A DNA stretch of 64,000 bases from Vibrio fluvialis (lineage in GTDB: Bacteria > Pseudomonadota > Gammaproteobacteria > Enterobacterales > Vibrionaceae): NCBI RefSeq assembly GCF_900460245.1, contig NZ_UHIP01000002.1, positions 434,001 to 498,000 of the forward strand, in the 5' to 3' direction. Shown here piece after piece: positions 22,143-51,770 of this stretch; positions within the stretch are counted from its first letter, which is position 1; every line of letters begins with the position of its first letter. Position numbers and translations under genes: made by a program. The notes beneath the pieces are model-generated. The model had not been told where the DNA came from, did not search any database, and saw nothing but the letters and a program-made list of their open reading frames with translations.

Positions 22143-22187
22143 TAGATAAAAACAATAACGCCCGCGATTTTAAGTCGCGGGCGTTAT
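22143..22187 (-). terminator. Terminator of the dioxygenase gene
   Basis: A 13-bp perfect stem, ATAACGCCCGCGA with TCGCGGGCGTTAT, with a 7-base loop. On the minus strand it is followed by TGTTTTTATC. Confidence 0.9.
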
Positions 22188-28224: not shown

Positions 28225-28247
28225 ATGTACAGAAAAGGAATTTGACC

Positions 28248-29021
28248 ATGAAAAAATTTGCTGTTGGTATGGCGTGTGTCGCCACTCTGTTCTGCGCTGC
28301 GGTTTCTGCTAAAGAAGTCCGTCTGGCGTCCGACTTTACCTATCCACCGTTCAACTACAAAAACAGCGCTGGTGAACCGGTTGGCTTTGATATCGAAATC
28401 GCCGATGCGTTGTGTAAAGAAGCCAAACTCGATTGTACCTGGGTCGCTCAGAGCTGGGATGCACTGATCCCTAGCCTGTTGGCCCGTAAATCTGACGTGA
28501 TCATGGCTTCAATGCGCATTACTGACGATCGTAAAAAGAAAGTGCTTTTCACCAACAAATACTACCAAACGCCAGCGCGTTTCGTGACCCGCAAGGACGG
28601 GACCTTCACGCTGGATAAAGCAGGCCTGACCGGCAAAGTGATTGGCGTGCAGCAAGGCACCATTCACGATCGCTACGTGACCGACAAATTTGGTTCAGTG
28701 GCTGAGATCAAACGCTATACCGGTCAGGATGAAGTGTACATCGACATGCAAAACGGTCGTCTGGACGCCACGTTTGGTAACGCGGATCAGCTCTCACTCG
28801 CTTTCCTGGATAAAACCGATGGCCAAGATTTCGAATTCAAGGGTGAAGCGGTGACCGATAAAGCCTACATTGGTGAAGGCACCGCACTGGCACTGCGTAA
28901 ACAGGATCAGGAACTGGCCGCCAAATTCAATCAGGCGATTGAAACCATTCGAGCCAATGGTACTTACGACAAAATCGCAGCGAAATATTTCAGTTTTGAT
29001 ATCTACGGTGAAAACCTGTAA
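28248..29021 (+). CDS. Periplasmic amino-acid binding protein (Arg/Lys/His-type)
   Basis: The 257-residue protein has a signal peptide ending VSA-KEV near residue 21. The SBP_bac_3 fold includes VRLASDFTYPPFNYKNSAGEPVGFDIEIADALC, an ArtJ/HisJ-type start. TDDRKKKVLFTNKYYQTPARFV follows and IAAKYFSFDIYGENL closes it. No permease or ATPase gene is adjacent, so it must use an unlinked transporter or act as a sensor. AAAAGGAA precedes the ATG at 28248; the TTG at 28242 is an upstream alternative. It forms an operon with the aminotransferase. Confidence 0.9.
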   Translation: MKKFAVGMACVATLFCAAVSAKEVRLASDFTYPPFNYKNSAGEPVGFDIEIADALCKEAKLDCTWVAQSWDALIPSLLARKSDVIMASMRITDDRKKKVLFTNKYYQTPARFVTRKDGTFTLDKAGLTGKVIGVQQGTIHDRYVTDKFGSVAEIKRYTGQDEVYIDMQNGRLDATFGNADQLSLAFLDKTDGQDFEFKGEAVTDKAYIGEGTALALRKQDQELAAKFNQAIETIRANGTYDKIAAKYFSFDIYGENL

Positions 29022-29088: not shown

Positions 29089-29117
29089 AGCCACGCCATG
29101 CCGCGTGGCTTTTTTTA
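29089..29117 (+). terminator. Terminator of the aminotransferase/binding-protein operon
   Basis: An 8-bp stem, AGCCACGC with GCGTGGCT, a 6-base loop and seven T residues. Confidence 0.92.
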
Positions 29118-29122
29118 TTTTA

Positions 29123-29129
29123 TGCACCA
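29123..29129 (+). promoter_or_regulatory. NtrC-like half-site upstream of the sRNA promoter
   Basis: TGCACCA matches one half of the NtrC consensus; the other half (around ACAGCA) is poor. It lies about 110 bp upstream of the sigma54-like promoter, a normal distance for an enhancer site. It is weak alone. Confidence 0.25.
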
Positions 29130-29234
29130 GATCACAGCAGACTGCCCCAAGTCGAAGCATCTGAAAGATAGAAAAATAATTGTGCGGAAACGGAGAGTCG
29201 ATATAACTCATTGATTTTATTGAATTGAAAAAGT

Positions 29235-29250
29235 TGGCACGCTGCCTGCA
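29235..29250 (+). promoter_or_regulatory. Sigma54-type promoter of a candidate sRNA
   Basis: TGGCACG, four bases, CTGCA, with GG at 29236-29237 and GC at 29248-29249. The 10 bp between the two dinucleotides is the exact spacing RpoN requires. The predicted start is near 29261. The -12 element lies inside a perfect 13-bp inverted repeat (29239-29251 and 29266-29278). A sigma70 alternative with a TATAAC -10 is at 29202-29207. Confidence 0.55.
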
Positions 29251-29260
29251 TTATATAAAT

Positions 29261-29360
29261 TACAAATGCAGGCAGCGTTTGTGCTTCTTTTCAGTGATAT
29301 GGCAGAAATCACTGGTCACTTCATGTTCTTTGACCTCCCTCTGGGAGGTCTTTTTTTTTT
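29261..29360 (+). ncRNA. Candidate small regulatory RNA, about 100 nt
   Basis: The region has no coding frame but is bounded by a sigma54-like promoter and one of the strongest terminators in the window. It contains a single-stranded-looking 5' segment, a stem CAGTGAT (29292-29298) with ATCACTG (29308-29314), a U-rich linker and the terminator stem. That architecture is typical of Hfq-dependent sRNAs. If a sigma70 start near 29214 is used instead, a third 13-bp hairpin is added. It is not Qrr by sequence: I do not find the conserved Qrr target-pairing core. It is not recognised as a known sRNA. Confidence 0.5.
29332..29360 (+). terminator. Strong terminator ending the candidate sRNA
   Basis: An 8-bp stem, GACCTCCC with GGGAGGTC, a 3-base loop and ten T residues. 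No gene precedes it after the operon terminator at 29089. Confidence 0.95.
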
Positions 29361-29524
29361 GCGCCGTTGCAACAGCGTCTGGGCAAAGATACTAGTCGCT
29401 TTCTATTGCGCATGATTTGAGCATCGTCAATTTTTTCGAATTATCTCAACAAAGATGAGTCATTGGTTTCATAACCATTCGCGCGTATGATGCCGTCACT
29501 CTTTTCCCACATTTTGATAACTTT

Positions 29525-30421
29525 ATGTCGAACCGTCATTCTCCTGCAAAGGGCGCATTCTGGATGCTGACCGCTGGTCTTGCGTTTGCTCTGGTCAACA
29601 GCGTGACACAAATTGCCAGTATTCATTTTGGCCTGGCCTCCACCACAGTCGCGTTTATTCAGTACGCGGTCGCTATCGTTGTGATTCTGCCTTATTTGCG
29701 CTCGCTCGGTATTCGCCGTTCACTGCGCACCGCCCATTTTAAATGGCACGTCCTGCGTGTCCTGCTGGCCGTGATTGGGATTCAGTTGTGGCTTTGGGCT
29801 CTCGCGTATCCTGTACCTATCTGGCAAGGTATCGCATTGCTGATGACATCTCCGCTGTTTGCGACACTCGGTTCCGGTCTGATTCTCAAAGAGCGGGTCG
29901 GAACGGCTCGCTGGTGTGCCACGCTGGCCGGATTCATCGGTGCGATGATCATTCTTGAACCGTGGGCTGACGATTTCAGTTGGGCGGCGCTATTACCCGT
30001 TGGAGCTGCGTTGTTCTGGGCCAGCTACTCGTTGATGGTCAAACACCTTTCGGCACAAGATTCACCGTCCACCATGGTGGTTTACCTGCTGCTACTGATC
30101 ACGCCATTCAACCTGCTACTCGCCATTCCGGAATGGCGGACACCGCAAGGCACACAAATTTGGCTGCTACTGCTCGCTGCAGGTGTGATGACAGCGCTGG
30201 CGCAATGGGCCATTGTTAAAGCCTATTCACTGGCTGACGCTTCTTTTGTTCAGCCGTTCGACCACGCCAAACTGCCCTTGAACGTCTTGGCAGGTTGGAT
30301 GGTGTTTGGCTGGGTTCCACCGGGGCGTTTGTGGCTGGGCGCAGCGATCATCATCGCATCGGTCGCGTTTATTACCCATTGGGAAACAAAAAAGACGGCG
30401 CGTGAAATAAAAGCGGCGTAA
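29525..30421 (+). CDS. EamA/DMT-superfamily membrane transporter
   Basis: The 298-residue protein has ten predicted membrane spans arranged as two EamA repeats (residues about 10-145 and 155-290). The first begins GAFWMLTAGLAFALVNSVTQIA and the second WAALLPVGAALFWASYSLMVK. It is a drug/metabolite-transporter type, probably exporting an amino acid or metabolite. No ribosome site is obvious before ATG 29525. It is 40 bp upstream of the glutaredoxin-like gene and possibly co-transcribed with it. Confidence 0.85.
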   Translation: MSNRHSPAKGAFWMLTAGLAFALVNSVTQIASIHFGLASTTVAFIQYAVAIVVILPYLRSLGIRRSLRTAHFKWHVLRVLLAVIGIQLWLWALAYPVPIWQGIALLMTSPLFATLGSGLILKERVGTARWCATLAGFIGAMIILEPWADDFSWAALLPVGAALFWASYSLMVKHLSAQDSPSTMVVYLLLLITPFNLLLAIPEWRTPQGTQIWLLLLAAGVMTALAQWAIVKAYSLADASFVQPFDHAKLPLNVLAGWMVFGWVPPGRLWLGAAIIIASVAFITHWETKKTAREIKAA

Positions 30422-30463
30422 AACCTTTCCTATGCTGTAAGAAAGTGATTCCGAGGAACAATG

Positions 30464-31078
30464 ATGGCAACGCCGATTAAAGTCACCCTATACCGCTGGG
30501 CTGGGCAGTTTGGACCGTTTAAGGTCAACATTCCCTGTGGCGAATGTACGCTCACCAAAGACATACTCAATGATACCTTCAGCAACGAACTGGCGGGTAT
30601 TCCGATTGAGCTGGAAGTCAAAGATTGGCTGAGCCATTGGTGGGAGCCTTTGCGTTACGGAGCTTGGCACGCACCGATTGTTATCGTAGAGGGCAAAGTG
30701 GTCAGTCAGGGTGAAGCACTTAACCGTGGCATGCTTGTGCAGTCCGTGATTCAGGCATGGACACCCAGAGACACGCTCACCGGCAATATTGTCTTTGGCA
30801 AAGCGAGTTGCCCCTACTGCACCAAAGCGAAAAACTTACTGCAGTCGGCGGGTATCGATTACGACTACCGGGATGTCATCAAAGACAGCGCAGCCCTGTA
30901 TCGCATGATCCCAGAAGTGAAAGCCATCATCGGCGAGAAAACACCAGTAACCGTGCCGCAGATATGGCTGGATGGCCAATACATCGGGGGATGTGATGCA
31001 TTGGAGACCTGGTTGGCAGCCAACCCTCACAAGGCCAAGCAAGGCAATGTTGTCAAATTAACTGGCAAAGTTCTGTAA
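30464..31078 (+). CDS. Two-domain glutaredoxin-like protein
   Basis: The 204-residue protein has two thioredoxin-fold halves. The N-terminal half (about 1-100) has a CGEC motif in FKVNIPCGECTLTKD, and the C-terminal half is a monothiol/dithiol glutaredoxin with CPYC in FGKASCPYCTKAKNLL, then TVPQIWLDGQYIGGCDAL for glutathione binding. It probably acts as a thiol-disulfide oxidoreductase in the cytoplasm. An ATG at 30461 directly precedes the one used; GAGGAA serves either. The N-terminal domain sequence is unusual among glutaredoxins and may bind a partner or metal. Confidence 0.85.
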   Translation: MATPIKVTLYRWAGQFGPFKVNIPCGECTLTKDILNDTFSNELAGIPIELEVKDWLSHWWEPLRYGAWHAPIVIVEGKVVSQGEALNRGMLVQSVIQAWTPRDTLTGNIVFGKASCPYCTKAKNLLQSAGIDYDYRDVIKDSAALYRMIPEVKAIIGEKTPVTVPQIWLDGQYIGGCDALETWLAANPHKAKQGNVVKLTGKVL

Positions 31079-51725: not shown

Positions 51726-51740
51726 ATCTTGTTGAATTAA

Positions 51741-51770
51741 AAAAGAGTCTGCGAATGCAGACTCTTTTTA
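51741..51770. terminator. Terminator shared by lpp and the L,D-transpeptidase
   Basis: A 13-bp perfect stem, AAAAAGAGTCTGC with GCAGACTCTTTTT, and a GAAT loop; T runs occur on both strands. Confidence 0.95.

Follow-up and report, generated by a model that had tools for sequence, protein, structure and literature searches.

A Vibrio small RNA gene without a counterpart in the RNA-family library searched, with a sigma54-type promoter and nitrogen shortage as its probable inducer

An sRNA gene of a kind that is missing from the RNA-family library searched is, on well-supported comparative grounds, present in about one quarter of the Vibrio genomes that we examined. It was studied from its copy in the window, by which we mean the whole stretch of 64,000 nucleotides of Vibrio fluvialis DNA that was analyzed, and from the sequence of its promoter region the gene is probably switched on by nitrogen shortage. 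In our view, it is on balance probable that this is a stand-alone gene driven by sigma54 and NtrC, belonging to a Vibrio family absent from Rfam, the RNA of which is likely to act in trans with Hfq. Sequence comparison supports the RNA gene, its sigma54-type promoter, the pairing of hairpin 2 and of the terminator, and the spread in Vibrio. Transcription, the roles of NtrC and Hfq, and pairing in trans are what we infer from these features.

The window genome comprises 4.86 Mb in two contigs. The locus has the order solute-binding protein gene, terminator, two NtrC-like sites, sigma54 element, a start predicted near 29262, three hairpins, a terminator with ten T that ends at 29360, and the EamA gene (Table 1). 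The solute-binding protein located 5' of the sRNA shares 94% protein identity with its V. furnissii counterpart, and the terminator identified behind its gene bears out the sequence-only reading, which had taken this gene to be terminated.

Table 1. Coordinates of the genes and predicted elements at the sRNA locus (positions in the window).
Feature	Position	Strand	Evidence or remark
Upstream gene, family-3 solute-binding protein (Lys/Arg/Orn type)	28242..29021	+	TIGR01096, 249.9 bits, just below the cut-off of 256.35
Terminator of the upstream solute-binding protein gene	29089-29110		
NtrC-like site 1 (putative), TGCACCAGATCACAGCA, centre -131, begins TGCACCA	29123..29139	+	10/14 informative consensus positions
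NtrC-like site 2 (putative), TGCCCCAAGTCGAAGCA, centre -111, begins TGCCCCA	29143..29159	+	10/14 informative consensus positions
sigma54 -24/-12 element, TGGCACGCTGCCTGCA	29235..29250	+	exact; kept in 33/33 aligned copies
14-bp inverted repeat, arms 29239-29252 and 29265-29278	29239..29278	.	perfect; 2/33 copies
Predicted sRNA, type A, ~99 nt	29262..29360	+	conservation, covariance model, covariation
Hairpin 1, nearly invariant 5' module, loop AGGCA	29262..29282	+	fold, conservation
Single-stranded GCTTCTTTT, candidate pairing segment	29283..29291	+	conserved in type A; function inferred
Hairpin 2, GGCAGA at 29301-29306	29292..29314	+	6/7 pairs with two-sided changes somewhere
Pyrimidine-rich unpaired segment 5' of the terminator, possible Hfq contact	29315..29331	+	unpaired in fold; role inferred
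Intrinsic terminator, stem 29332-29350 then ten T	29332..29360	+	6/8 pairs with two-sided changes somewhere
Downstream gene, EamA transporter, commonest downstream neighbour	29525..30421	+	
Glutaredoxin-domain protein, syntenic anchor	30461..31078	+	

We judge the sRNA gene to be real because of its conservation across relatives, which is the decisive evidence. When 227 Vibrio genomes were searched at the DNA level, 73 had a match, many of the matches covering the promoter alone, and the longer matches were aligned as 33 copies from 31 genomes, which are related and hence not independent. In these 33 copies strong identity sets in at ACAAATGC, 13-15 nt downstream of the C in the -12 element, and ends at the terminator, so that the strongly conserved stretch spans the predicted RNA, in line with the product of about 100 nt that had been proposed; upstream of it, the parts that stand out in the aligned copies are the sigma54 element and the distal sites. 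A covariance model (R1), built on nine sequences and with matches accepted at E-values up to 0.01, detected the gene in 48 of the 227 genomes, and the conservation search advised in the sequence-only reading has thus yielded a family. For 31 of the 48 genomes the copies were aligned via hand-picked coordinates, and 17 were assigned by model scores; the loci of these 17 show the 5' module and the -24/-12 element. With ten genomes carrying the divergent type C (see below) the gene is found in 58 of the 227 genomes, and by these searches it is absent from 169. A Vibrionaceae-wide sample of 296 genomes had matches in 44, confined to one of 13 genera.

The gene seems to be truly missing from many Vibrio genomes, though diverged forms could escape our searches. 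A strict sigma54 pattern applied to 20 match-free loci revealed a type C gene in one (L179), the other matches appearing intragenic, and among 20 longer loci the hairpin-1 pattern was found in seven, all preselected as suspects, and in none of the other 13. No copy lies in the stretch taken around the solute-binding protein gene in 33 Vibrio loci (L053-L085), the usual site being perhaps outside that stretch, nor was one present in the viral contigs (exact 18-mer) and phages searched. As regards the literature, no description of this sRNA was present among the matches listed, supplements and most subscription papers being outside the search, and a search for the sRNA sequence itself returned no paper; in the portion of PMC9732341 that was covered, sigma54, RpoN, NtrC and nitrogen are all absent.

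The predicted RNA starts 12-13 nt past the exact -24/-12 element, and RNAs of this family would be expected to begin at ACAAATGC or GCAAATGC. The fold of 29260-29360 has a z-score of -3.65, and none of 200 shuffles was equally stable. Both the internal stem and the strong terminator followed by ten T that had been described from the letters are present, and the long U tail is a trait expected of an Hfq-dependent trans-acting sRNA; the pyrimidine-rich segment preceding the terminator is conserved in most type A copies. An alternative, sigma70-dependent start that would lengthen the RNA gained no backing, since 9-of-12 promoter matches occur at chance number (three between 28000 and 30500, versus 2.8 expected). 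Among 25 type A copies, of which 24 are distinct, 98.9% of the alignment cells pair, in an alignment that was fitted to the structure, which favors pairing; two-sided changes affect 12 of 23 pairs and 60 cells, a value reached in none of 500 shuffles. In hairpin 2 the double changes are plain in the raw sequences, for example CAGTGAT/ATCACTG, CAGTGCT/AGCACTG and TCGTAGT/ACTACGA. Hairpin 1 is almost without variation and shows no double changes, and its pairing is therefore proposed from conservation and folding.

Three structural types can be distinguished. Type A, which includes the window copy, measures 89-108 nt. Type B, of 102-105 nt, keeps the 5' module apart from its first base and an additional base in the loop, and differs in the middle; one of its copies is found in V. 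campbellii LJC015, the record of which is almost without annotation, so that the lack of an annotated sRNA there is uninformative. RNAalifold run on types A and B jointly did not recover hairpin 2, and the types were therefore modeled apart. A model built from type B (R2) matched in 58 of the 227 genomes, comprising all 48 found with R1 and ten further, weak ones, and in six of these ten (G084, G114, G132, G134, G225 and G246) the match lies ~4 kb before the glutaredoxin gene. These six led to type C, which was derived from them with G085, G154, G183 and G237 left out. Type C is longer (153-159 nt) and divergent, with the 5' end ACAAATGCTGGCAGCATTTGCACTT and a longer body, and a DNA search with it gave 11 of 227 genomes, of which ten were counted and one, G004, was left out (25-base match). 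The G004 locus (L275) may hold a further type, in which CAAATGCTGGCAGCATTTGCACTT is found 3' of a TGGTAC...TGC element. In the genome G010 the gene occurs as three copies in tandem (L027:1312-1851), which are nearly identical in the RNA and differ in their promoters, a separate -24/-12 element preceding every one of them.

The sequence-only reading had pointed to a -24/-12 element with exact GG-GC spacing, which we confirm (GG at 29236-37, GC at 29248-49) and find retained in all the aligned copies. The exact match to TGGCACRNNNNYTGCW is the only one in the 64 kb, but three are found when one mismatch is allowed, versus 4.2 expected, and the motif alone therefore proves little. Among 33 further loci, several of them repeats of earlier copies, 32 match the -24/-12 pattern, the exception being L275, where TGGTAC replaces TGGCAC. 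The perfect 13-bp inverted repeat reported over the -12 region is also real and in fact extends to 14 bp, yet it is limited to the window copy and that of G105; in the other 31 of the 33 copies promoter and RNA start match over 4-8 bp at most, which places the repeat outside the conserved mechanism. Perfect repeats of at least 13 bp with loops of 3-30 number three in the window, versus one across five mononucleotide shuffles taken together; the two further ones, each of 13 bp with a short loop, are located at 22155-22187 and 51740-51769. The repeat at 29239-29278 may stem from a local inverted copying event. Type C promoters (L245-L251) have a different repeat around -12, with the sequence CTACTGCTTTAGTAG or one similar to it, about 20 bases 5' of the RNA.

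Judging from sequence, NtrC is the likeliest activator, as suggested by paired TGCACCA-like sites that resemble those of glnA, together with the kept -24/-12 element. The sites were scored against an assumed NtrC consensus of 14 informative positions, taking the two best per copy (maximum summed score, 28). In 27 of the 33 copies these two sites, located near -120 and -100 in most cases, are separated by 18-22 bp, a spacing not kept in six (the middle copy of L027, L030, L032, L046, L049 and L052). Of the 33 copies, 24 reach a summed score of 19 or more out of 28, versus 3.8% of 3000 control stretches, and nine score lower, five at 18 (reached by 8.8% of controls) and four at 17. The region upstream of glnA in the window genome contains TGGTGCA twice and GCACCA twice, plus a sigma54 element. 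Two ammonium-transporter loci taken as a control gave no sigma54 match with the strict pattern, so that one of the two positive controls failed. The putative sites are consistent with the earlier idea of testing ntrC dependence. That these searches find no copy of the gene in 169 of the 227 genomes is odd for a core nitrogen circuit.

The best placed of the other explanations, which we nevertheless consider unlikely, retains the sigma54 sRNA gene but assigns it to another enhancer-binding protein (a LuxO relative, SypG, VpsR or an uncharacterized one) and to a signal other than nitrogen. In many copies the right half of the NtrC-like sites is weak, and the core promoter is close to Qrr promoters, as this explanation would have it, but the TGCACCA/TGGTGCA halves match those before glnA, and the exact LuxO-type TTGCANNNTGCAA, searched in its exact form only, occurs upstream of none of the 33 copies. 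The LuxO-site motif is given as TTGCAWWWTGCAA in PMC10162802.

Under the favored explanation, a sigma54/NtrC-driven RNA acting in trans, phosphorylated NtrC would occupy the two sites near -131 and -111 during nitrogen limitation and would activate sigma54 RNA polymerase at the -24/-12 element, giving an RNA that is predicted to run from about 29262 to the terminator near 29360. This RNA would most likely work in trans, with Hfq, contacting its targets by the near-invariant 5' module (hairpin 1 with its loop, followed by GUGCUUC), and hairpin 2 and the terminator may serve as scaffold and Hfq site. In type C the segment matching GUGCUU sits within a stem, which disfavors simple seed pairing, and most copies of all three types have GGCA in hairpin 1 and again 3' of it, so that a protein or RNA partner is conceivable. 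The RNA could then be a decoy or sponge that binds a protein or another RNA via its GGCA loops instead of silencing mRNAs through a linear seed, an explanation that we regard as rather improbable. The recurrence of GGCA has exceptions that speak against it, namely L048 and L251, without the hairpin 1 copy, and L042, without the second. It would be in keeping with the target searches, which produced no mRNA target either by seed complement or at porins, but the search for mRNA targets was shallow. The seed complement AAGAAGCAC occurs 72 times in the genome, versus 29 for the reversed control, and one of the 72 is the opposite strand of the sRNA gene itself. Target prediction from the 5' segment, which had also been advised, gave no convincing start-site target among the 30 of the 72 loci that were read, most being intragenic, nor among porin leaders; three of the 30 presumably correspond to 16S rRNA, which they resemble. 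The sRNA segment GUGCUUCUU is exactly complementary to AAGAAGCAC at L193, L199 and L207, probably by chance.

An OmpU-like porin is the nearest upstream gene in 25 of the 33 copies (the three G010 copies being each counted), and a porin precedes the sRNA gene in all seven type C loci. The sRNA might repress the neighboring OmpU-like porin by pairing near its start, which we deem quite improbable. When the start region was compared with the segment following hairpin 1 in 20 loci, the pairing energy was better than that of shuffled leaders in all 14 type A loci (mean z of about -1.0), but worse in six of six type B loci, giving a mean z of -0.55 over the 20, a weak and type-dependent pairing that does not establish the porin as a target. 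In addition, the pairing site differs among loci, and in the window the solute-binding protein takes the upstream place, the nearest porin relatives of this genome being located elsewhere (38% and 39%). Many Vibrio porin leaders (in L004-L052, L164-L168 and L224) contain a hairpin, for example GAGC-loop-GCTC, about 30-45 bases 5' of the start codon, and similar leader hairpins precede porins also in genomes without the sRNA.

In the window the EamA gene lies on the same strand as the sRNA gene and begins 164 bp past the sRNA terminator, but a cis-acting leader or attenuator is very unlikely because the nearest downstream gene varies (EamA in 13 of the 33 copies, glutaredoxin in ten, a hypothetical protein on the other strand in eight, and others in two). 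Just as unlikely is a small-protein gene or dual-function RNA: contrary to the earlier statement that there is no open frame, the ATG in hairpin 1 opens a frame of 49 codons (29266-29415) in the window, and some frame exists in 40 of the 40 copies translated, but the window frame extends beyond the terminator and is unconserved in relatives, in which the lengths range from 8 to 71 aa, the frame shifts between groups and some frames overrun the terminator, and the ATG lies within a stem behind a leader of 4 nt.

Returning to the sigma54/NtrC-driven RNA, we tentatively propose that it represents a second sigma54 sRNA system of Vibrio beside Qrr, one that would report nitrogen shortage via NtrC, and in which a near-invariant 5' module is combined with at least three different scaffolds, the contact element being selected and not the body. 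If this is true, nitrogen status would be tied by an RNA to surface or metabolic remodeling, from a gene that is usually porin-adjacent and that is present as three tandem genes in one species. The near-identical core promoter with a different probable activator implies that one promoter type could serve both quorum sensing and nitrogen control. A direct test could build on a defined RNA, an inducing condition that is clear and V. campbellii as a named host; the three structural types point to the functional segment, and the sRNA could become a new Rfam family.

Several known systems share some of these features. GlmY/GlmZ and CrcZ are sigma54-linked sRNAs, and some such RNAs titrate a protein; the RNA described here is like them in its sigma54 link, whereas the window reaches the gathering threshold of no Rfam family, Qrr (RF00378) included. 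In PMC8092317, EsrF of E. coli O157 is described as an sRNA in the glnALG operon that is repressed by NtrC. The likeness lies in the control of an sRNA by NtrC, which here is putative, and the two are set apart by description, not by sequence, since in our case activation and a sigma54 promoter are predicted. With the NtrC-sigma54 regulon, as represented by glnA, the gene has in common TGCACCA-type half-sites and a sigma54 element, but its product is an RNA, its sites are farther from +1 or otherwise arranged, and NtrC binding is putative. The sigma54-dependent sRNAs usually named for Vibrio are the Qrr RNAs, which the sequence-only reading had considered dissimilar, rightly so by the Rfam scans: Qrr was named at nine of nine promoter-only loci, and five family loci had no match. 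The new RNA differs from Qrr in sequence, in genomic site and in being without exact LuxO sites here, while the two are alike in a near-identical -24/-12 element, a length of ~100 nt, a terminator, and tandem or multiple copies in some genomes.
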